Position numbers and translations under genes: made by a program
Shown: positions 2,719-13,257 of the stretch, in pieces
How the letters are laid out: every line of letters begins with the position of its first letter
Position numbering within the stretch: the stretch's first letter is position 1
Assembly (NCBI GenBank): GCA_030753015.1
Contig: JASMDC010000063.1
Span: 1-13,257 of the forward strand
Direction of reading: 5' to 3'
DNA: 13,257 bases
Source of the DNA: Candidatus Undinarchaeales archaeon
GTDB lineage: Archaea; SpSt-1190; JASMDC01
The notes under the pieces: model-generated
What the model saw: the letters and a program-made list of their open reading frames with translations, nothing else
What the model was told of the DNA's origin: nothing
Databases searched by the model: none

Positions 2719-3414
2719 ATGGCTATCAAAAGGTTGACGTCCGGTGTTCCCGGCCTTGACAAGATGATCGAGGGAGGGTTCGTTAAGGGTTCGAGCGTTC
2801 TGCTCTCCGGTACACCGGGGTCCGGCAAGACAACGCTCGCCATGCAGTTCCTGATCGAGGGAGCGTTGAACGCAGGAGAGCCCAGCATTTTCATCAGCTT
2901 CGAGGAGGGGCTCGAGCTCATACGTGAGAACTTCATACGCTTCGGATGGAGCATCGATGATCTGGAACGACAGGGCAAGCTGGTCCTGGTGCAGAAGGAC
3001 GCGACGCTGGTGGGGGCGCTCCTGGAAAACGAGCTCGGCCAACTGCAGGAGATCCTGGAGAGGGTGGGTGCCAAACGTGTGGTCATCGACTCCGTGAGCG
3101 TTATGAACGAGAGCTCGGACAAGGTCGACCGGCAGACGCTCGCCCAGCTCGTGGACTTCCTGCGGTCGAAGGGATGCACGACACTCTTCATCCATGAGCG
3201 GAGCGTCGCAGCAGTCGATGAGATCAAGTACGAAGCGATCGACTTCCTCTTCGACGGTATCATACTCCTTAGCAGGATGCGGACGGGCAACTCCTTCCGC
3301 CAGATCCTGAGAGTACCGAAGATGCGCTACACGAAGATCATGCCCAAGATCGTTCCTGTGCAGATATCGGACAAGGGTGTGGCCGTGTACCCTGAGATGT
3401 CCGTCTTCGAATAG
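2719..3414 (+). CDS. Single-domain KaiC/RadA-like RecA-superfamily ATPase
   Basis: 231 residues, one RecA-like domain rather than the two of cyanobacterial KaiC. It opens with the family pattern TSGVPGLDKMIEGGF. Walker A is GTPGSGKT at 31-38, the paired catalytic glutamates are Glu62-Glu63 (FISFEEG), and Walker B is RVVIDSVS with Asp124. All ATPase residues are present. The length matches archaeal KaiC-like proteins, which often sit beside histidine kinases and are thought to act as hexameric signalling ATPases. The second domain with KaiC's Ser/Thr phosphosites is absent. AGTGAT at 2710-2715 serves as ribosome-binding site, 3 bases before the ATG. The gene is 10 bases after the zinc-ribbon gene and 1 base before the kinase, which argues for one operon and a shared pathway. 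Confidence 0.92.
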   Translation: MAIKRLTSGVPGLDKMIEGGFVKGSSVLLSGTPGSGKTTLAMQFLIEGALNAGEPSIFISFEEGLELIRENFIRFGWSIDDLERQGKLVLVQKDATLVGALLENELGQLQEILERVGAKRVVIDSVSVMNESSDKVDRQTLAQLVDFLRSKGCTTLFIHERSVAAVDEIKYEAIDFLFDGIILLSRMRTGNSFRQILRVPKMRYTKIMPKIVPVQISDKGVAVYPEMSVFE

Positions 3415-3415
3415 G

Positions 3416-5575
3416 ATGAAGCATGAGGTGTCCGCTATCGCGGGAAATGAACGGACCACACTGGAGCTCGCTCAGGAGGAGCTGCGCAAGAGCGAGGAGC
3501 GCACCCGGTCCATCATCGACGTCATCCCCGACCTGATGTTCCAGATTCACAAGGACGGCACCTTTCTGAGCTACAAGGGGGGACGAGAGGACCTGTATGC
3601 ACAACCGGAGCTGTTCCTGGGCAAGAAGGTCCAGGACGTGCTCCCGAAGGACCTCGCCGCCCTGACTATGCGCCATGTGAAACTCGCCCTCGATAGCGGC
3701 GAAAAACAGTCCTACGAGTACGATCTCCCGATCAATGGCCAGGTGTGCAGCTTCGAGTCACGCATGGTCAAGAGCGGGGTGGACGAGGTCGTCGCCGTCG
3801 TGCGCGACATCACCGAGCGGAAGAGGACGGAGGAGAGCGTGCAGCAGGTGGCCGATGAATGGAGCTCGACCTTCGACTCGATCTCGGACCTGATATCAAT
3901 CCAGAGCACGGATTGCAGGCTCATCCGCGTCAACAAGGCCTACGCCGACGCCTTCGGGATGGAGCCAGAGGAACTGGCTGGCAAGCGATGCTTCGGGGTG
4001 GTCCATGGATCGAAAGAGCCTACTCCGGATTGTCCCATGTGCAACGTGCTAGAGGATAAGGAGCCGTTCACGGTGGAGTTCTTCGAACCGCACATTGGGG
4101 CTCATCTGGAGGTGTCGGTCTCACCGATACTGGATGAGAAGGGGGAGGTCGCCAGGGTCGTGCACATCGCAAAGGACATCACAGAGCGCAAGAAGATGGA
4201 GGAGGAGCTGGATGAACACCGACGGAACTTAGAGGTGAGGGTGGCCGAACGGACCGAGGACCTCAACGAGGCCGTCGAGCGTCAAGAAAAGGAGGTCGAG
4301 GAGCGCTCCCGGGCCCAGAACGAGGTACGTTTTATACAGTCCCTGACTTTGACCATAAGCGATGCCGGGGACCTAAGGACCGCACTGTGTGCGGTCCTCG
4401 AAAAGGTGTGTGTTGACACGGGGTGGAACCTCGGTGAGATATGGTCGCACGGTACCGATGGGGAACTGGGATGGTCCGACGTTTGGTACCACTCCAATAA
4501 GGGGATGACGCGATGGAGGAATGAATCCAAGGAGGTGACCTTTCGAGAAGGGGAAGGGCTTCCAGGGATATGCTGGTCCTCAAGGGAACCCGTCCTTTTC
4601 CACGACATCAGCTGTGATCCGAGGTTCATTCGAGGCGAACTCGCAAGAGCGTTCAAGTTACGGGGCGGTGTTGCTGTACCTGTACTGATGGAGGACGATG
4701 TGCTGACCGTCCTGACGTTCTTCAAGTATAACCCTCTTGAGGAGGAGGACGAACGCTGGGCCCAGCTCGTCTTTTCGAGCGTGTCCCAACTCAAGACGAT
4801 CATTGAGCGCAAACGAGCCGAGGATGAACTTCGTGGGACCCAGGAAGAGCTGATCCAGTCCGAGAAGATGGCCTCCCTAGGGTTGCTGGTGGCCGGCGTT
4901 GCACACGAGGTGAACAATCCGCTTGCGTTCCTCAGATCGAATTCGGAGTCCATTGTGGACAAGATAGAGACGATCAATGAACAAGTAGATGCGAGCGAGG
5001 CCGTGGATACCATGGCCCTCGATGGTATAGGGGCCATGGCCCGCACGAACTTGAGGGGGATCGACAGGATCGCCGACATCACAAGGACCCTGAAGCGGTT
5101 CGCCGCACCCGACGCCGGGGAAATGTCACCTTCGGACGTCAACCAGGGGATACGGGACACGCTGCTCATGGTGCACAACCAGCTGAAGCACCATGTCACC
5201 GTTCACGAGGAATACGGGGACGTACCAAAGGTGGTCGGGCGCATCGGCCAGCTGAACCAGGTGTTCATGAACATGATCCTCAACGCTTCGCAGGCCATGG
5301 AGAAAGGAAACATATGGGTGCGAACGCGGGAGCGGTCCGGCAACGTCTACGTGGAGGTACGTGACGACGGAGAGGGGATCGCCGATGAGGACCTCGACAG
5401 GTTGTTCGATCCATTCTTCACTACGAAGGACGATGGGACCGGCCTCGGGCTCAGTACGTGCTATCGCATCATCCAAGAGCATGGTGGTTCCATCAAGGTG
5501 AAGAGCACCAAGGGGAAGGGTGCGACCTTCACCATATGCATCCCGGTAGGTGAACGAAATGAGCGAAAGAGATGA
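3416..5575 (+). CDS. Sensor histidine kinase, PAS-PAS-GAF-HisKA-HATPase
   Basis: 719 residues from ATG 3416, one base after the ATPase stop; GTG 3377 would overlap that gene and is less likely. No transmembrane helix, so cytoplasmic. Domains: PAS1 about 30-136, PAS2 about 143-258 (each ends DITERK), a coiled coil 258-300, GAF about 305-460, HisKA about 473-555, HATPase about 600-715. The H-box is GVAHEVNNPLAF with phospho-acceptor His497. The N-box is QVFMNMILNASQAM (Asn623), G1 is RDDGEGI (Asp651), the F-box is DPFFTTK and G2 is GTGLGL (from 674). This is the NtrB/ZraS-like class. PAS2 carries three cysteines in RCFGVVHG...DCPMC (Cys192, 206, 209), which may bind metal or a cofactor or sense redox. 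Its stop overlaps the start of the regulator at 5559, so the two are translationally coupled. The C-terminal half and PAS1 are paralogous to the kinase at 6656-8590. Confidence 0.95.
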   Translation: MKHEVSAIAGNERTTLELAQEELRKSEERTRSIIDVIPDLMFQIHKDGTFLSYKGGREDLYAQPELFLGKKVQDVLPKDLAALTMRHVKLALDSGEKQSYEYDLPINGQVCSFESRMVKSGVDEVVAVVRDITERKRTEESVQQVADEWSSTFDSISDLISIQSTDCRLIRVNKAYADAFGMEPEELAGKRCFGVVHGSKEPTPDCPMCNVLEDKEPFTVEFFEPHIGAHLEVSVSPILDEKGEVARVVHIAKDITERKKMEEELDEHRRNLEVRVAERTEDLNEAVERQEKEVEERSRAQNEVRFIQSLTLTISDAGDLRTALCAVLEKVCVDTGWNLGEIWSHGTDGELGWSDVWYHSNKGMTRWRNESKEVTFREGEGLPGICWSSREPVLFHDISCDPRFIRGELARAFKLRGGVAVPVLMEDDVLTVLTFFKYNPLEEEDERWAQLVFSSVSQLKTIIERKRAEDELRGTQEELIQSEKMASLGLLVAGVAHEVNNPLAFLRSNSESIVDKIETINEQVDASEAVDTMALDGIGAMARTNLRGIDRIADITRTLKRFAAPDAGEMSPSDVNQGIRDTLLMVHNQLKHHVTVHEEYGDVPKVVGRIGQLNQVFMNMILNASQAMEKGNIWVRTRERSGNVYVEVRDDGEGIADEDLDRLFDPFFTTKDDGTGLGLSTCYRIIQEHGGSIKVKSTKGKGATFTICIPVGERNERKR

Positions 5576-6488
5576 GGACATGGTACACGACATCCTGGTC
5601 GTGGACGACGAGAGGGACGTGCTGGAAGCGCTCCGCATTACACTCGCGGACGCAAAGCGATTCAGGAGCAAGACCACACTGGTATGCAATGCCGAGGAGG
5701 CGCTCGCAGAGCTTGATAAGCGCGAGTTCTCGCTTGTCATCTCGGATTATAAGATGCCCGGGATGAACGGCGTGGACCTGCTGGCAGCGGTACGCGAGCG
5801 ACATCCCCGGACCATGCGTGTGCTCATCACCGGTTACTCGGACGTCGCCATCGCCCGGGAGGCCATCAACCGGGCGAAGGTTGACCACTACGTGGAGAAG
5901 CCATGGGATAACAAGGCGCTCAGGGAAATCGTCAAGGGCCTGCTTTCCCTCCACGCCTACCGGAGGTCCCCTGACCTCTCACCAAGCACCGAGAGGGCCA
6001 TGGACACCGACCAGCGCTTCTCGCTGGAGCCGGGATTCATCTATAAGGTGTCGGAGAGGAAGGGTGAGAGGAGCTTCGAGATCCTTTCGGACCTCGTGAC
6101 CCATGGTCATCAGGGCCTTGTCATCACCATACAATCCCCCGAAGTGCTCAGGAAGAAGTACGGATTCGAGAACACGCGCATCCTGTATCTTGGAAAGGAG
6201 AAGCATGGGGGCGAGTGGGTCGACGCGAGCGACCTGATATCAATCGGTATCCTCATTCGGGACTTCCTAGAGGATGCAGAGAACGGGGTCGTGGTCCTGG
6301 ACGGTATCGAATACCTTATCACTTCATTCAGCTTCGAGACGATAATCAAGCTCATCCAGAACCTGTACGAGTTCAACACATTCAACCGTTCGCTCATAAT
6401 AATACCCGTCAATCCCAATGCTCTGGACAGGAAGGAGATGGCGATACTCGAGCGGTACGCCGAACCAGTCGAGGAAGGCAGGGACTGA
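5559..6488 (+). CDS. Response regulator, receiver-DUF835
   Basis: 309 residues from ATG 5559, chosen because GGTGA (5549-5553) lies 5 bases upstream; GTG 5550 is within that site. It overlaps the kinase by 17 bases. The receiver covers about 8-130: acidic pocket VVDDE, phospho-acceptor Asp63 in VISDYKMPGMNG, Thr91 in LITGYSD, Lys114 in VEKPWD. The receiver style (ITGYSD...AINRAK...EKPWD) is common in bacteria. Residues about 156-305 are DUF835, an archaeal domain of unknown function that replaces a DNA-binding output. It has a Walker-B-like strand (VVVLDGIEYLI) and strand-helix order like RecA/KaiC but no P-loop. I infer a degenerate RecA fold that may bind the KaiC-like ATPase encoded at 2719-3414. 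The partner kinase is almost certainly the upstream one. Confidence 0.93.
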   Translation: MSERDEDMVHDILVVDDERDVLEALRITLADAKRFRSKTTLVCNAEEALAELDKREFSLVISDYKMPGMNGVDLLAAVRERHPRTMRVLITGYSDVAIAREAINRAKVDHYVEKPWDNKALREIVKGLLSLHAYRRSPDLSPSTERAMDTDQRFSLEPGFIYKVSERKGERSFEILSDLVTHGHQGLVITIQSPEVLRKKYGFENTRILYLGKEKHGGEWVDASDLISIGILIRDFLEDAENGVVVLDGIEYLITSFSFETIIKLIQNLYEFNTFNRSLIIIPVNPNALDRKEMAILERYAEPVEEGRD

Positions 6489-6530: not shown

Positions 6531-6645
6531 CTTAATGGATTGGGGCTGCACAGGGAAGAGACAGACGTGAGGATGGGCTGTGGGATTCTCCGCTTGCGTT
6601 GATGCCATCGCGACCCCCTATCTCATCCGTTCCCCTTCCCTGCCT

Positions 6646-6651
6646 GGGTGA
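6646..6651 (+). promoter_or_regulatory. Shine-Dalgarno site supporting a TTG start at 6656
   Basis: GGGTGA matches the archaeal 16S tail and lies 4 bases before TTG 6656. The ATG at 6602 has no such site and would add a Pro/Ser-rich leader (PSRPPISSVPLP) that does not look like coding sequence. Confidence 0.45.
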
Positions 6652-6655
6652 AGGA

Positions 6656-8590
6656 TTGAGCGAGCAAGTAGATTCGCTGCCAGAGCGTCAGAAGGAAACG
6701 CTCGACGGAAAGAGCGCTCTAACGCAGTCCATCCTCGACGCGATGCCCGACCTGATGTTCCAGATCCGGAAGGACGGCACCTTCCTTAGCTACAAGGGGG
6801 GGGTGGACGAGCTGTACGCCCCTCCTGAGCAGTTCCTGGGGAAGAAGATCCACGAGGTGCTGCCCAAGAATCTCGCCGACCTGACGATGCGGAATATGAA
6901 GGCCGCTCTCGGTAATGGCGGGACGCAGACGTACGAGTACGAGCTGCCCATCAGCGACGAGACGCGATACTTCGAGTCGCGGATGGTCAAGAGCGGGACG
7001 GACGAGGTCGTCGCCGTCGTGCGCGACATCACCGAGAGGAAGAGGAACGAGCGTGAGATCCAAAGCTCCGAGGAGCGGCTCAAGGTAATCTTCGAACACG
7101 CTCCCGACGGATACTTCGTAAGCGACTTCAAGGGATACTTTACAGACGGGAACAAGGCCACTGAGGAGATCTGTGGCTTCAAGCGTGAGGACATCATCGG
7201 TACCAACATCCTGAGGAACTGTCCGATCGTACCCATTGACCAGGTACCTCTGGTGGCCAAGATACTTGCTCAGAACATCAAGGGGAAGTCCACGGGACCC
7301 GACGAGCTGGAGATCGTGCGCAAGGACGGAAAAAGGCACATGGTCGAGGTTAAGACGCTGGTCATGGAGATCAAGGGTGAGCCACGCGTGCTGGGAATCG
7401 TAAGGGACATCCACGAGCGCAAGGTGGCCGAAGCCCAGGTACGCGAGTACCAGGAACAGCTGACCTCCATCTTCCAGACCGTCCGGGACGGCCTTGCTCT
7501 CATCGACCTCTCTGGCGCCATACTGCGCGTCAATAAGGCGTTCGCCACCATCTCGGCCTACAAGGAGGACGAGCTCGTTGGTAAGCAGATCCACAAGCTG
7601 GAGATGTTCTCGAAGGCAGGGCGTGCACAGCTCATGACGGGATACGCCAAGATGCGGCTCGGCCGCCGGACACCTGCCTTCGAGCTAGAAGCGAGCAGGA
7701 AGGGCGGCGAGCGGTTCCACCTCGAGGTATCGGCCGATCCGATCAAGAAGGAGGGAGTGGTGGTCGGGATGGCGGTGTCGCTCAAGGACATCACCGACCG
7801 CAAGAGCCTGGAGGGAGAACTGCGAGAGCACGCAAAGAACCTGGAGGACGATGTACGGGCACGTACCAACGAGATGATCCAGTCGGAGAAGATGGCCTCG
7901 ATAGGGCTTCTTGTCGCAGGAGTGGCCCACGAGGTGAACAATCCCCTGGCGTTCATCAAGTCCAACTCCGAGGACATGCAAGAGGATATCGAGAATGTCC
8001 TGGAGAAGGTCAGCAAGAAAGGAGACGTTGATACGGAACTGCTGGACGAGGTCGACGCGCTCATCGAGACCAATCTCAAGGGTATCGACCGGATAGCGGA
8101 AATAACCAAGACGCTGAAGCGGTTCGCGCGCCCGGAGACGACCGAGATGGTGCCGTCGGACATCAACCAGGGGATACAGGACACGCTGGTCATGGTCCAC
8201 AACAAGATCAAGTACAGGGTCGAGGTCCTCGGGGACTATGGCGAGGTCCCCGCGGTGATGGGACACATCGGCCAGCTGAACCAGGTCTTCATGAACATCA
8301 TACTCAACGCGTCACAAGCAATGGACAAGGGTAACGTATGGGTCCGGACTTGGCATAAAGACGGCAATGTCATGGTGGAGATCCGCGACGATGGCAAGGG
8401 GATCCCGGAGAAGGACCTCGGCCGGATATTCGATCCCTTCTTCACGACGAAGGAGGGGGGGACAGGGCTCGGGCTCAGTGCGTGCTACAGGATCGTGCAG
8501 GAACACAACGGTTCCATTGATGTGAGGAGCACGGTAGGGAAGGGAACTGCTTTTACGATAACTTTACCGGTGGGTGGAAGGAATGGATGA
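6656..8590 (+). CDS. Sensor histidine kinase, PAS-PAS-PAS-HisKA-HATPase
   Basis: 644 residues from TTG 6656 (see the ribosome-binding site); ATG 6602 is the alternative and adds 18 residues. It is soluble. PAS1 about 20-130 (DLMFQIRKDGTFLSYKGG), PAS2 about 132-258, PAS3 about 262-390, HisKA about 405-485, HATPase about 530-640. The H-box is GVAHEVNNPLAF with His425, the N-box QVFMNIILNASQAM (Asn551), G1 RDDGKGI (Asp579), F-box DPFFTTK and G2 GTGLGL, so all kinase residues are present. PAS1 and the kinase core are close paralogues of the kinase at 3416-5575, but the middle differs: two ordinary PAS domains replace the cysteine-bearing PAS and the GAF. The two kinases therefore probably read different inputs through similar cores. 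The stop overlaps the following regulator by 8 bases, indicating coupled translation. Confidence 0.94.
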   Translation: MSEQVDSLPERQKETLDGKSALTQSILDAMPDLMFQIRKDGTFLSYKGGVDELYAPPEQFLGKKIHEVLPKNLADLTMRNMKAALGNGGTQTYEYELPISDETRYFESRMVKSGTDEVVAVVRDITERKRNEREIQSSEERLKVIFEHAPDGYFVSDFKGYFTDGNKATEEICGFKREDIIGTNILRNCPIVPIDQVPLVAKILAQNIKGKSTGPDELEIVRKDGKRHMVEVKTLVMEIKGEPRVLGIVRDIHERKVAEAQVREYQEQLTSIFQTVRDGLALIDLSGAILRVNKAFATISAYKEDELVGKQIHKLEMFSKAGRAQLMTGYAKMRLGRRTPAFELEASRKGGERFHLEVSADPIKKEGVVVGMAVSLKDITDRKSLEGELREHAKNLEDDVRARTNEMIQSEKMASIGLLVAGVAHEVNNPLAFIKSNSEDMQEDIENVLEKVSKKGDVDTELLDEVDALIETNLKGIDRIAEITKTLKRFARPETTEMVPSDINQGIQDTLVMVHNKIKYRVEVLGDYGEVPAVMGHIGQLNQVFMNIILNASQAMDKGNVWVRTWHKDGNVMVEIRDDGKGIPEKDLGRIFDPFFTTKEGGTGLGLSACYRIVQEHNGSIDVRSTVGKGTAFTITLPVGGRNG

Positions 8591-9506
8591 AGAAACGGAA
8601 GGGACCAGCTACAAGATCTTGATAGTGGACGACGACGTGGACGTCCTCAGGGCCCTTGAGCGGAACCTGACTAGGGCCAAGGATTTCAAGAGTGTCGTCG
8701 AAACGGCCAACAACGGCGAAGAGGCGCTCACGAAGTTGGCTGCACAGGAGTTCGCTCTCGTGATCTCGGACTTCAAGATGCCGGGCATGAGCGGCGTGGA
8801 CCTGTTGAAGCTTGTGAAGGAACGCTATCCTACTACAGTGCGCGCCCTCATCACCGGATATTCCGATGTGTCGATCGCCAGAGATGCTATCAATAGGGCA
8901 AAGATCGACCATTACATGGAGAAGCCCTGGGACCGCGATGAGATCCGTAGTGCGGTCAAGGGATTGCTGGACCTCCACGAGTTCAAGCGTCGTGTCGAGC
9001 TATCACCGGACACCGAGCAGACTGCAGAGGGTGAACAGCAGTTCTCCATGAATCCCGGATTCATCTACATGGTGGAAGAGCGGAAGGGGATGAAGAGCTT
9101 CGAGATCCTCTCCGACCTCGTCACCCATGGTCATGAGGGACTTGGCATCACCATCCAGTCGCCAAAGATCCTGCGACAGAGGTACGGGTTCGAAAAGACA
9201 CGCATCGTCTACATGGGGAAAGAACAGCACGGCGAGGAGTGGGTGGACGCTTCCGATATCGTGGCGATAGGCATCATCATCCGAAACTTCCTCGAAGAGG
9301 CGAAGAACGGTGTCGTCGTCATAGACGGTATCGAGTACCTCATCTCGTGCTTCAGCTTCGATACCATCGTCAAGCTCATCCAGAACCTCTACGAGTTCAA
9401 TACCTTCAACGGCTCGCTGATCATCTTCCCCGTGAATCCGAAAGCTCTTGAGAGGAAGGAGCTTGCGATCCTCGAACGCTACCTCGAGCCTGTCGGAGGT
9501 GAGTGA
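8583..9506 (+). CDS. Response regulator, receiver-DUF835 (paralogue of the first regulator)
   Basis: 307 residues from ATG 8583, preferred over GTG 8574 because GGTGG (8573-8577) lies 5 bases before the ATG. Receiver at about 8-130 with VDDD, phospho-acceptor Asp63 (VISDFKMPGMSG), Thr91 (LITGYSD) and Lys114 (MEKPWD), each at the same residue number as in the regulator at 5559-6488. DUF835 at about 156-303 is highly similar to the first copy (for example EILSDLVTHGH and KLIQNLYEFNTFN occur in both). This pairing, with the second kinase overlapping it, makes a duplicated two-component module. There is no DNA-binding domain, so the output is probably protein-protein. The stop overlaps the ribosome-binding region of the DUF362 membrane gene (9509), which ties that protein to this pathway. 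Confidence 0.93.
   Translation: MDEETEGTSYKILIVDDDVDVLRALERNLTRAKDFKSVVETANNGEEALTKLAAQEFALVISDFKMPGMSGVDLLKLVKERYPTTVRALITGYSDVSIARDAINRAKIDHYMEKPWDRDEIRSAVKGLLDLHEFKRRVELSPDTEQTAEGEQQFSMNPGFIYMVEERKGMKSFEILSDLVTHGHEGLGITIQSPKILRQRYGFEKTRIVYMGKEQHGEEWVDASDIVAIGIIIRNFLEEAKNGVVVIDGIEYLISCFSFDTIVKLIQNLYEFNTFNGSLIIFPVNPKALERKELAILERYLEPVGGE
9495..9502 (+). promoter_or_regulatory. Consensus Shine-Dalgarno site of the DUF362 membrane gene
   Basis: GGAGGTGA is fully complementary to the archaeal 16S 3' tail and is the strongest site in the window. It lies 6 bases before ATG 9509, inside the end of the upstream regulator, and decides against GTG 9503 as start. Confidence 0.6.
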
Positions 9507-9508
9507 AC

Positions 9509-12112
9509 ATGAGCTTCCTCCTGGACCCACCGCTCCTGTTCGCCATGGGTTTCCTCGTCCACCTCTTGGGGAAGGCCCTCGGATGGGAGCGACGTGCCAA
9601 GATCGCCCTCGGTACGGGTGTGGTGGTGCTGTTCTGGGCGGTGAGCTCGCTCCTGTACCTGGACGTGCTGGGCTGCGTATTCCCGTGCTTCTGCTACGGT
9701 GTGACGTTGCTCCCGACAACAGTGTGTCATCAGGGGACACCTCCCGACGCCGCCACGTTCATGGTTTCGGGCGTGCCCTGGGTACCGTTCGTGGGGAACG
9801 TGCCGCCCTGGGCCGCGGCCGCGCTCTTCCTCCTCTACATCATCTGGGTGTTCATCGGGTACGACCTTGCGCTCAAGTTCACGAAGCGCAGGGTGAGCGA
9901 CGGGTCCGGATATATCTTCATCCTGGTCCTCTTCCCCTTGTGGACGCTCCTCGGTTACTGGGTCTCGGCGGAGGTAGGGGCTGCCGTCGGACCACCACTC
10001 GCCAACCTCCTGAACTATCTCCTGCGGACACAGATAACGACGGGCATCGGCTTCTCCAAGACCCTCCAGTTCGTGCTCAATCCGCTTTGTCTGGTCCTCG
10101 GCTACGCACTGGCACTATGGAGGACGGCTCCTCAGCCTGCCACCGGTCAGGTCTACAGCAAGGACGATGTCAAGAGCACCGGGCTCGACCTGGGCGACAC
10201 CCAGTTCGCGGTCGCCCGGGACGAGGATGCCGTGAAGTGCGTCCAGCAGGCCATCAAGGGACTCGGTACCAAGTGCGAGTGGATCGACGACAACGGCACT
10301 GCCGAGGACGCGATGAAGCATGTTGTCAAGGACGGGGACAGGGTCCTCATCAAGGTGAACATCTGCGGCGGTGTCGCCCAGCGAAAGGGTACCTGGACCT
10401 CGACCGACGTCGCCGGTGAGGTCGTCAGACTGGTGAAGGCCGCCGGCGGGAAGCCCTTCGTGTGCGATGCGGACATGATCTGGACCCACTTCTGGCCCGC
10501 GGCGGAGTTCAAAGGCTGGAAGCAGTGGGCCGAGGACAATGATGTCGAGCTCGTGAACCTGTCCGAGACCGATCGTGTGAGGTTCGACTTCGGTCTGGAT
10601 AGCCACTCCTGGGAAGTGGACGTCTCTAAAGAGATCGTCGAGGCCGACGTCATCATAACCGTTCCTGTGATGAAGACGCACGTGCTCACGGGAATCACCA
10701 TCGCCATGAAGAACATGTACGGCACCTATCCGCAGGTCGACAAGGCGATGTTCCATAAGAAGGGCATCGAGGATGTCATCTACTACGTGAACAAGGCGTT
10801 CACTCCCAACCTCGCCATCATCGACGGGAGCATCGGCGGGGAGGGGCAGGGACCGCTCACAGCGGACGATGTCAACTACCAGACCATCATCGCGTCGAAC
10901 GACGTGGTCTGTGCCGATGCCATCGCCTGCAGGATAATGGGTTACGATCCGCTTGAGGACATCATCCATCTTCGGTTGGCCCACGAGAGGAACCTAGGTG
11001 ACGGATCAGTGGACTTCGACCTCGATGAACTGCCCTATCCCCATCCAAAGGATGGGAACTGGAGGCGTCCGGACACTGATGTGTTCAGCTTCTATAACAG
11101 GTTCACCGAGGGCGTGCTCAATCTTCCCGTGCTCGGACCCCTGTTCAAGAGCTTCTTCAACATGGGCGCCGACTTCCTCATGTACGACACGGCCAAGCTT
11201 CCCACTATCGGGTACGTAACGCCCGGAGTGCTGACCGCCGTGCACGACGGATTCGACTGGGCGCTCGAAGGTCAGGAGGACACCGGTCCGGACGATAGAA
11301 GGAGGTGGAACAACACGTACATCCTCGCGTTCGTCGCCATCCTCTCCCTGGTCCTGTTCGTCCTGGACGGGTACGTGAGCCTCCTTACAGCTTTCCTTGT
11401 CCTCAACTTCGCCGGGTTCCTGGTGCTGGCATGGGTGATGGGTATCTGGATGGAGACAACGTCCTACATGGTGCTGATAGGGATCTCGGCGCTCTTGGGC
11501 TTCGTGCTCGAGTCCATCACGCCATCGGGCGGGATGTGGACCTATGCCAACGGGCTCATGCCCCCTCTGTCCGCGGTGCCCACCTGGGCCGTGCTCATGA
11601 CATCCATCTTCGCTCTCACGAGCGCGGTCGCTCCGTACCTCGAGTGGCTGGACGTGTTCAAGCGGCTGAGGAACGGCATCTGGGTGCTCCCTGGTTGGCT
11701 GTGCAGGACGCTACCGTTCCTGCTGGCGTCGGCCGGATTCGTCATCCTCCTACATTGGGAGGGCTACCTCAATCAGGCGCTAACGTCCTTCACCTGGAAG
11801 GCGTTCATCTGGCAGGGGCCGCAGGCGATGTGGGTGGTCTACCTCTATGTCGTGATGTGGCTCTTCGGGTTCTACTATGCACTGAGCCGCTCGATGGAAT
11901 GGAACGCTGCCCTGATGGTGTCAGGGATCGTCTTCGGCGGATGGATAGAGCTCATCGGCTGGCAGGCAGAGATGTGGTACTACCTCCATAACGGTACCCT
12001 TCCGCTCTTCCTGTGCATCGCGTGGGCGCTCAACGCGTTCGCCGTGCAGGGGCTCGCGTACGTAATCGGTTACGACCTGAAGGATGCTATCGTGAGGGGA
12101 CGCCAGAGCTAG
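9509..12112 (+). CDS. Polytopic membrane protein with a central DUF362 domain
   Basis: 867 residues. The N-terminal region, about 1-210, has four or five transmembrane helices and a loop with Cys56, Cys60, Cys62 and Cys73. The central soluble region, about 223-560, matches DUF362: LIKVNICGG (Lys282, Asn284), ADVIITVPVMKTH (Lys389-His391) and IAMKNMYGTYP (Lys401, Asn402). DUF362 has no settled function; some members are fused to ferredoxin domains, but no 4Fe-4S cluster motif is seen here. The C-terminal region, about 600-850, has six to eight transmembrane helices with an internal duplication around Glu668 and Glu814. Fusion of DUF362 between two membrane regions is unusual in my experience. 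Coupled translation with the second regulator suggests joint expression. It might be a membrane enzyme or transporter, or the effector of the signalling island. Sequence alone does not decide. Confidence 0.85.
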   Translation: MSFLLDPPLLFAMGFLVHLLGKALGWERRAKIALGTGVVVLFWAVSSLLYLDVLGCVFPCFCYGVTLLPTTVCHQGTPPDAATFMVSGVPWVPFVGNVPPWAAAALFLLYIIWVFIGYDLALKFTKRRVSDGSGYIFILVLFPLWTLLGYWVSAEVGAAVGPPLANLLNYLLRTQITTGIGFSKTLQFVLNPLCLVLGYALALWRTAPQPATGQVYSKDDVKSTGLDLGDTQFAVARDEDAVKCVQQAIKGLGTKCEWIDDNGTAEDAMKHVVKDGDRVLIKVNICGGVAQRKGTWTSTDVAGEVVRLVKAAGGKPFVCDADMIWTHFWPAAEFKGWKQWAEDNDVELVNLSETDRVRFDFGLDSHSWEVDVSKEIVEADVIITVPVMKTHVLTGITIAMKNMYGTYPQVDKAMFHKKGIEDVIYYVNKAFTPNLAIIDGSIGGEGQGPLTADDVNYQTIIASNDVVCADAIACRIMGYDPLEDIIHLRLAHERNLGDGSVDFDLDELPYPHPKDGNWRRPDTDVFSFYNRFTEGVLNLPVLGPLFKSFFNMGADFLMYDTAKLPTIGYVTPGVLTAVHDGFDWALEGQEDTGPDDRRRWNNTYILAFVAILSLVLFVLDGYVSLLTAFLVLNFAGFLVLAWVMGIWMETTSYMVLIGISALLGFVLESITPSGGMWTYANGLMPPLSAVPTWAVLMTSIFALTSAVAPYLEWLDVFKRLRNGIWVLPGWLCRTLPFLLASAGFVILLHWEGYLNQALTSFTWKAFIWQGPQAMWVVYLYVVMWLFGFYYALSRSMEWNAALMVSGIVFGGWIELIGWQAEMWYYLHNGTLPLFLCIAWALNAFAVQGLAYVIGYDLKDAIVRGRQS

Positions 12113-12163: not shown

Positions 12164-12210
12164 GATTTAGATCGGACATTCAGATACGTTCGCCTGCCCC
12201 GAAGAAATAC

Positions 12211-12219
12211 CTATTTAAA
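12211..12219 (+). promoter_or_regulatory. TATA element for the cysteine-rich repeat gene
   Basis: CTATTTAAA is centred about 28 bases before ATG 12243. This predicts a leaderless transcript and supports 12243 as the real start of the open frame that runs off the window. Confidence 0.65.
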
Positions 12220-12242
12220 CCATCCACGGGTTCGACTTTAGT

Positions 12243-13257
12243 ATGGGAAGAAGCATCATTGGGATCCTGTTCCCAATCTTTATGATCATCACGCTCCTGG
12301 GTGCAGGGGTCGACTGTACGACGGTCGCAGACTGTGGCGGTTCGGACCATCATTGCGAGGGTAACACTCTCGTGCAGAACGTGTGCACGCAAGGTTCTTG
12401 TATGCAGGACTTCCGCCCGTGCGAGAACTCGTACTATGATAACGGTCCAGCAGTGTGTCAGGAGGGTGCGTGCGCTCGTGCCCCTGATGCGCCCGTACCT
12501 ACCACCAGTAGTGGCAGCTGCACGACGGTCTCCGACTGCGGAGGCTCGGACCACCATTGCGAGGGTAACACTCTCGTGCAGAACGTGTGTTCCCAAGGTT
12601 CTTGTATGCAGGACTTCCGTCCGTGCGAGAACTCGTACTATGACAACGGTCCAGCCGTATGTCAGAACGGTGCATGCGCTCGTGCCCCCGACACCGCCGG
12701 GCCGGTGATCAGTGAAAGCGGCTGCACTACGGTCGCTGACTGCGGCGGCTCGGACCACCACTGCGAGGGTAACACTCTCGTGCAGACCGTGTGCACACAA
12801 GGTTCTTGTTCGCTGGACTTCCGTCCCTGCGAGAACTCCTACTACGATAACGGTCCAGCCGTATGTCAGGAGGGTGCGTGCGCGCGTGCTCCCGACTCAG
12901 CGGGTCCTGTCATCGATGACAACAGCTGCACGACGGTCTCCGACTGCGGTGGCTCGGACCACCATTGCGAGGGTAACACGCTAGTGCAGACCGTGTGCTC
13001 CCAGAGTTCCTGTGTGCTCGACTTCCGTCCGTGCGAGAACTCGTACTATGATAATGGCCCCGCCGTATGTCAGAACGGTGCATGCGCTCGTGCTCCCGAC
13101 ACGACCGGGCCGGTGATCAGTGAAAGCGGCTGCACGACCGTCGCTGACTGTGGCGGCTCGGATCACCACTGTGAGGGTAACACACTTGTGCAGACGGTGT
13201 GCTCACAGGGTTCTTGTTCGCTGGACTTCCGTCCGTGCGAGAACTCGTACTACGATA
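12243..13257 (+). CDS. Secreted cysteine-rich tandem-repeat protein (3' end outside the window)
   Basis: 338 codons are visible with no stop before the window ends. Residues 1-22 (MGRSIIGILFPIFMIITLLG) form a Sec-type signal peptide or anchor. From Cys25 the protein is an array of 68-residue repeats: four complete and a fifth cut by the window edge. Each begins CTTV(A/S)DCGGSDHHCEGN and holds 8 cysteines at repeat positions 1, 7, 14, 24, 29, 36, 48 and 53, so four disulfides per repeat are likely. A conserved CENSYYDNGPAVC and a variable linker (for example RAPDTAGPVISESG) end each unit. The pattern resembles cysteine-rich surface proteins of archaea and some bacteria, with C..DCG and CEGN-like motifs, but I do not assign a family. 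It is probably cell-surface or secreted; adhesion or a binding stalk is a guess. Its own TATA element argues for separate transcription. Confidence 0.88.
   Translation, partial: MGRSIIGILFPIFMIITLLGAGVDCTTVADCGGSDHHCEGNTLVQNVCTQGSCMQDFRPCENSYYDNGPAVCQEGACARAPDAPVPTTSSGSCTTVSDCGGSDHHCEGNTLVQNVCSQGSCMQDFRPCENSYYDNGPAVCQNGACARAPDTAGPVISESGCTTVADCGGSDHHCEGNTLVQTVCTQGSCSLDFRPCENSYYDNGPAVCQEGACARAPDSAGPVIDDNSCTTVSDCGGSDHHCEGNTLVQTVCSQSSCVLDFRPCENSYYDNGPAVCQNGACARAPDTTGPVISESGCTTVADCGGSDHHCEGNTLVQTVCSQGSCSLDFRPCENSYYD
12315..13257 (+). repeat. Five tandem 204-base in-frame repeats
   Basis: Units begin at the first Cys codon at 12315, 12519, 12723, 12927 and 13131, exactly 204 bases apart, the last one truncated. 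There are no length differences between units. Long stretches are nearly identical at the DNA level, including silent positions, which points to recent expansion or gene conversion. Units 2 and 4 share features, as do 1, 3 and 5, giving a weaker 408-base higher order. Confidence 0.95.

Follow-up and report, generated by a model that had tools for sequence, protein, structure and literature searches.

A gene running off the end of a Candidatus Undinarchaeales contig encodes an exported protein of 68-residue cysteine-rich repeats that is likely tethered to the cell surface by CWB2 domains

The analysed window is a stretch of 13,257 nt that makes up a complete contig (C77) of an archaeal assembly of 3.85 Mb in 117 contigs, estimated to be 98.9% complete and 5% contaminated, and it ends, together with the contig, within a genuine gene whose exported product is composed of many 68-residue cysteine-rich units. 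The gene likely encodes a large archaeal surface protein that consists of a signal peptide, at least 15 disulfide modules, an anchor of three CWB2 units, a charged coiled coil and, probably, a tail rich in cysteines. Its 5' part is on C77, and a second contig, C102, very probably holds the central portion and the bulk of the 3' part. The protein probably belongs to a set of three tethered surface proteins under common regulation in this genome.

The 5' part of the gene (12243..13257, plus strand) begins with ATG and runs for 338 codons (338 aa, 12243-13256) without a stop, remaining open at the contig end. Its frame has 0 stops across this region, as compared to 4 and 19 in the other plus frames and 3, 12 and 9 in the minus frames, which agrees with the initial annotation that only one frame reads cleanly here; a listing of open reading frames that requires a stop codon yields only shorter frames at this place, so such a search does miss the gene. 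The chance of such an open length is only moderately low (P about 5e-4 at the stop-codon frequency of the window). The coding claim holds apart from the length, because the changes among the repeat copies are mainly synonymous in the gene frame, with a mean pS of 0.49, a pN of 0.11 and a pN/pS of 0.23 (11 full-length units compared). In the other frames the changes are not mainly synonymous, except in one minus frame (ratio 0.33) that contains 26 stops and largely shares its degenerate positions with the coding frame. Selection acts on the frame at 12243-13257, and the hidden, open-ended gene proposed initially is borne out by this bias and by the frame being open to the contig end. Both C77 and C102 end inside the repeat array and the bin has a contamination estimate as given above, which might point to an assembly artefact or to a contaminant contig. 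At the DNA level the repeat units are 9-31% different from one another, and most of these differences are synonymous, a pattern that collapse or duplication during assembly does not yield. C77 and C102 are linked to the 50-kb contig C35 by a promoter box and by the anchor, respectively; an artefact or a contaminant is thus very improbable. Repeat-rich surface genes are split across contigs and hence missed in assembled genomes, and the window gene is an example of this.

The predicted product starts with a hydrophobic N-terminus of 22 residues, which was read directly from the sequence as a signal peptide (MGRSIIGILFPIFMIITLLGAG, 12243..12308, plus strand) by inspection only, with an approximate cleavage site and no lipobox; the equivalent starts of two paralogues on C35 agree with the signal peptide claimed before. 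It is followed by a single tandem array, which was reported by TRF at 12314-13257 with a 204-nt unit, 4.6 copies, 83% matches and no indels. A period of 408 nt fits the array better than one of 204 nt, suggesting that two-unit blocks were recently doubled. Four full units (12315..12518, 12519..12722, 12723..12926 and 12927..13130, plus strand) precede a fifth (13131..13257, plus strand) that has six cysteines and is cut by the contig end after residue 42, its remainder probably lying on C102. The consensus of the repeat is CTTVADCGGSDHHCEGNTLVQTVCxQGSCxLDFRPCENSYYDNGPAVCQxGACARAPDTxGPVxxDxx, in which the cysteines occupy positions 1, 7, 14, 24, 29, 36, 48 and 53; all eight of them, and also one histidine per unit, are invariant in 14 repeat copies. 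Repeats of 68 residues with eight cysteines each, as described initially, are true of every full unit in the window. The even spacing attributed to the cysteines applies to their recurrence with a period of 68 and not to their uneven positions within the repeat.

Disulfides in the repeat, which had been assumed from the cysteines, are plausible. Several DsbA-like thioredoxin_4 (thioredoxin-fold) proteins are encoded in the genome, and no VKOR, which serves in DsbA recycling, was found in it. Outside the cell, disulfides are the rule. Eight invariant cysteines together with an invariant histidine in each unit would also be compatible with metal-binding (metallothionein-like) or redox modules instead of structural disulfide domains. 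However, the signal peptide and the CWB2 anchor place the protein outside the cell, the DsbA-like proteins are present, and the repeat is without the CxxC or CxC clusters that metallothioneins have, so metal-binding or redox modules are improbable. As for the form that disulfide-bonded modules might take, the rigidity suggested initially finds no support, the repeats being set apart by variable linkers some ten residues long. In their protein sequence, positions 58-68 of the repeat change at four times the rate of the core (pN 0.31 as compared to 0.075 in the gene frame), and the junction residues 59-66 have a pLDDT below 50 in an AF2 model of two repeats, which is beta-rich and only moderately confident (mean pLDDT 69.5, pTM 0.38). 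Based on this low-pLDDT junction and these fast-evolving positions, small cystine domains on loose linkers would fit better than a rigid rod. The two-repeat model had no PDB fold match at E <= 0.001.

Within the genome the repeat occurs in 16 places, only on C77 and C102. No Pfam family matched the repeat at E <= 1, no NCBIfam entry was above the cut-off and no PDB sequence matched at E <= 10. The array in its entirety matched one uncharacterised PHROG at 2e-7, but none of the individual stretches passed by itself. No credible relative was found in 393 other archaeal genomes, which represent part of archaeal diversity and include nine other genomes of the same class, nor in the GTDB contigs, IMG/VR, plasmids and phages searched; GTDB and IMG/VR were searched with short peptide patterns, and distant relatives may be missed because of these patterns and the partial archaeal sampling. 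The class relatives searched have genomes of only 0.6-1.1 Mb, as compared to 3.85 Mb here. Four archaeal matches (E 0.002-0.01) were rejected, three having internal stops and the fourth (L029) lying in a frame that lacks a repeat of this kind. A literature search for archaeal cysteine-repeat surface proteins gave nothing to the point. The repeat is a lineage-specific module on an already known chassis.

The continuation of the array was found on C102, a contig of 3,678 nt whose minus strand (3676 down to 2, L016) is one frame of 1225 codons open at both ends, containing in order a partial repeat, ten full repeats, the CWB2 domains and a charged helical/coiled-coil region. C102 starts in frame at repeat residue 46 and the repeat of C77 stops after residue 42, and a gap of 6 nt between the contigs would complete an exact 68-aa unit in the same register. 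We infer that C77 and C102 are joined, and they are very probably one gene with the assembly break inside the repeat array. The best evidence for one gene is the one-to-one pairing of three promoter boxes with three anchors. The box of the window gene is a 24-nt BRE/TATA-like element, GAAATACCTATTTAAACCATCCAC (12204..12227, plus strand), 15 nt before the ATG. With up to three mismatches allowed, the 3.85-Mb genome contains exactly three copies, one upstream of the window gene and one upstream of each of two CWB2 paralogues on C35, and the reversed box used as a control had 0 matches in the same genome at the same mismatch limit. The copies of the window gene and of the first C35 gene match perfectly, and that of the second C35 gene has three mismatches; the distance to the start is 14-15 nt in the former two and 9 or 15 nt in the latter, depending on the choice among two in-frame ATGs. 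Based on the archaeal promoter layout, the box fits an archaeal BRE/TATA element with an almost leaderless transcript, and the good TATA element noted initially belongs to a box common to only two other genes. The two contigs have no sequence overlap and no linking reads, and tandem repeats can spread between genes; C77 and C102 might therefore be two genes sharing the repeat, in which case the product of the window gene would be secreted and have a different anchor or no anchor at all, and C102 would be the 3' part of another gene. This is unlikely, since no further 5' or 3' end of a gene of this kind is seen in the 98.9% complete genome, the three promoter boxes match the three anchors of the subfamily, and the short gap closes register and frame exactly.

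For the single gene spanning both contigs, a direct join gives a protein of over 1,560 residues with 15 repeats, so the gene would have at least 15 repeats, the copy number between the contigs perhaps being underestimated. No stop codon or frameshift, which would have spoken against the gene, is seen right after 13257, as C102, the only other contig with the repeat, continues in frame with ten more full units. The extension beyond the window that was proposed initially gives, through C102, the repeat count and the anchor, and the stop codon is outside the assembly. The breaks of C102 and C35 lie at most ten residues apart in a stretch common to both, and neither is continued into the missing 3' tail and stop codon by any contig of the assembly.

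PF04122 matched C102 with an E-value of 4.8e-14 in two stretches above the cut-off, and a third CWB2 unit was seen in alignment and model only. These three tandem units lie outside the window, and attributing them to its open-ended gene presupposes the inferred join; provided that the contigs join in this way, the triple anchor upholds the surface protein proposed initially. In bacteria, CWB2 is known to anchor proteins to wall polymers. The AF2 model of the anchor on C102 (mean pLDDT 78, pTM 0.74) shows alternating strands and helices, then long helices. The nine PDB matches obtained with Foldseek at E <= 0.001 were eight SlpA chains of C. difficile (SLPH/SLPL complexes) and Cwp6, with E-values for SlpA/SLPH and Cwp6 of 5.8e-9 to 3.9e-6 (prob 1.00). 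The triple CWB2 fold is shared with SlpA/SLPH, the best PDB match of the model, but the identity is 15-18% and the SLPL lattice domains are absent, the repeat string being in their place. Anchoring in C. difficile requires three CWB2 motifs, which bind the polymer PSII; a P[ILV][ILV][LV] motif, carried in all three units by most but not all of the proteins, is also of importance (PMC4973711). Units 1 and 2 of C102 have this motif (PVLL and PILL) and unit 3 is without it. PSII need not exist in an archaeon.

Seven large CWB2 proteins were identified with PF04122 in the genome. Two neighbouring genes on C35 (L065, 3346-7293 and 7499-12562) are 68-69% identical to C102 over the CWB2 and coiled-coil regions, whereas the other four proteins are only 25-40% identical to its anchor part. 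Both C35 genes encode a signal peptide, cysteine modules and then CWB2, and in the other four (L064, L066, L067 and L068; their open frames span 1420-1865 aa and contain 32 to 155 cysteines) CWB2 comes soon after the N-terminus, with the cysteine-rich regions far behind. The adjacent paralogues carry different cysteine modules, one gene having two modules and the other 13 repeats of 83-87 aa, mostly with six cysteines. The module of the second paralogue (DSDGGK, 13 copies) had single matches in 13 other archaeal genomes, one of them of the same class, and homology between the two repeat families of the genome was not detectable (probability 3%). PF04122 was present in 69 of the 297 archaeal genomes searched, its own genome counted; together with related proteins of Nanoarchaeota, Aenigmatarchaeota and Altiarchaeota, this indicates that the CWB2 chassis is widespread. 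Those related proteins, from MAGs, likewise have a signal peptide, CWB2 and a charged coiled coil, with a cysteine-containing tail in one, but they are 33-37% identical and have no 68-aa repeats between the signal peptide and CWB2.

CwpV of C. difficile has a conserved CWB2 anchor with interchangeable, unrelated repeat types that promote aggregation, and the window protein resembles the CwpV/Cwp family in its signal peptide, triple CWB2 anchor, long tandem-repeat array and combination of a conserved anchor with differing types of repeat (PMC3080850). The three paralogues with closely similar anchors and non-homologous repeat types represent, by analogy, a CwpV-like architecture. In contrast to CwpV, in which the anchor is N-terminal and the repeats are C-terminal, the archaeal repeats are N-terminal of CWB2 and cysteine-rich, a coiled coil follows the anchor, the host is an archaeon, and the variation lies between paralogues of one genome with no known phase switch. 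The window protein may work like CwpV, yet it is not classed as CwpV because the order of repeats and anchor is reversed. The protein would be exported via the general secretory route, the repeat modules would be oxidised outside the cell by DsbA-like proteins, and the CWB2 trio would bind a surface glycopolymer or S-layer non-covalently, so that a flexible string of small cystine modules would project from the surface. This string may mediate attachment or aggregation, much as the repeats of CwpV do; with CwpV as the nearest functional analogue, aggregation, adhesion or shielding would be the likeliest role, and an adhesion or aggregation role in particular can be put forward only tentatively. 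One promoter box would drive three genes whose products share nearly the same anchor and differ in their cysteine modules. It is a rather speculative idea that this box and the CWB2/coiled-coil chassis display interchangeable, lineage-specific strings of disulfide modules as an archaeal counterpart of Cwp/CwpV, with a new eight-cysteine fold and a new, non-bacterial CWB2 ligand. The presence in an archaeon of a co-regulated set of CWB2 proteins that carry long arrays of cysteine modules raises the question of the ligand of CWB2 there, and it provides a concrete gene set for studying surface building and variation in poorly known archaea.

Other genes were also observed in the window. A two-gene unit, consisting of a sensor kinase-like protein followed by a response regulator-DUF835 fusion, is tandemly duplicated at 3377-6488 and 6599-9506, the kinase being read by eye from the sequence and DUF835 being assigned by Pfam. 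An 869-aa protein encoded at 9503-12112 contains DUF362 (residues 281-477), with numerous hydrophobic segments on either side that seem to span the membrane; this fusion looks unusual. The protein encoded at 946-1860 has a weak, below-cut-off similarity to DUF4347, a lipobox-like ALSGCS near its start and, as seen by eye, caspase-like histidine and cysteine contexts (LAYHGSS and LYSCSVGSG).
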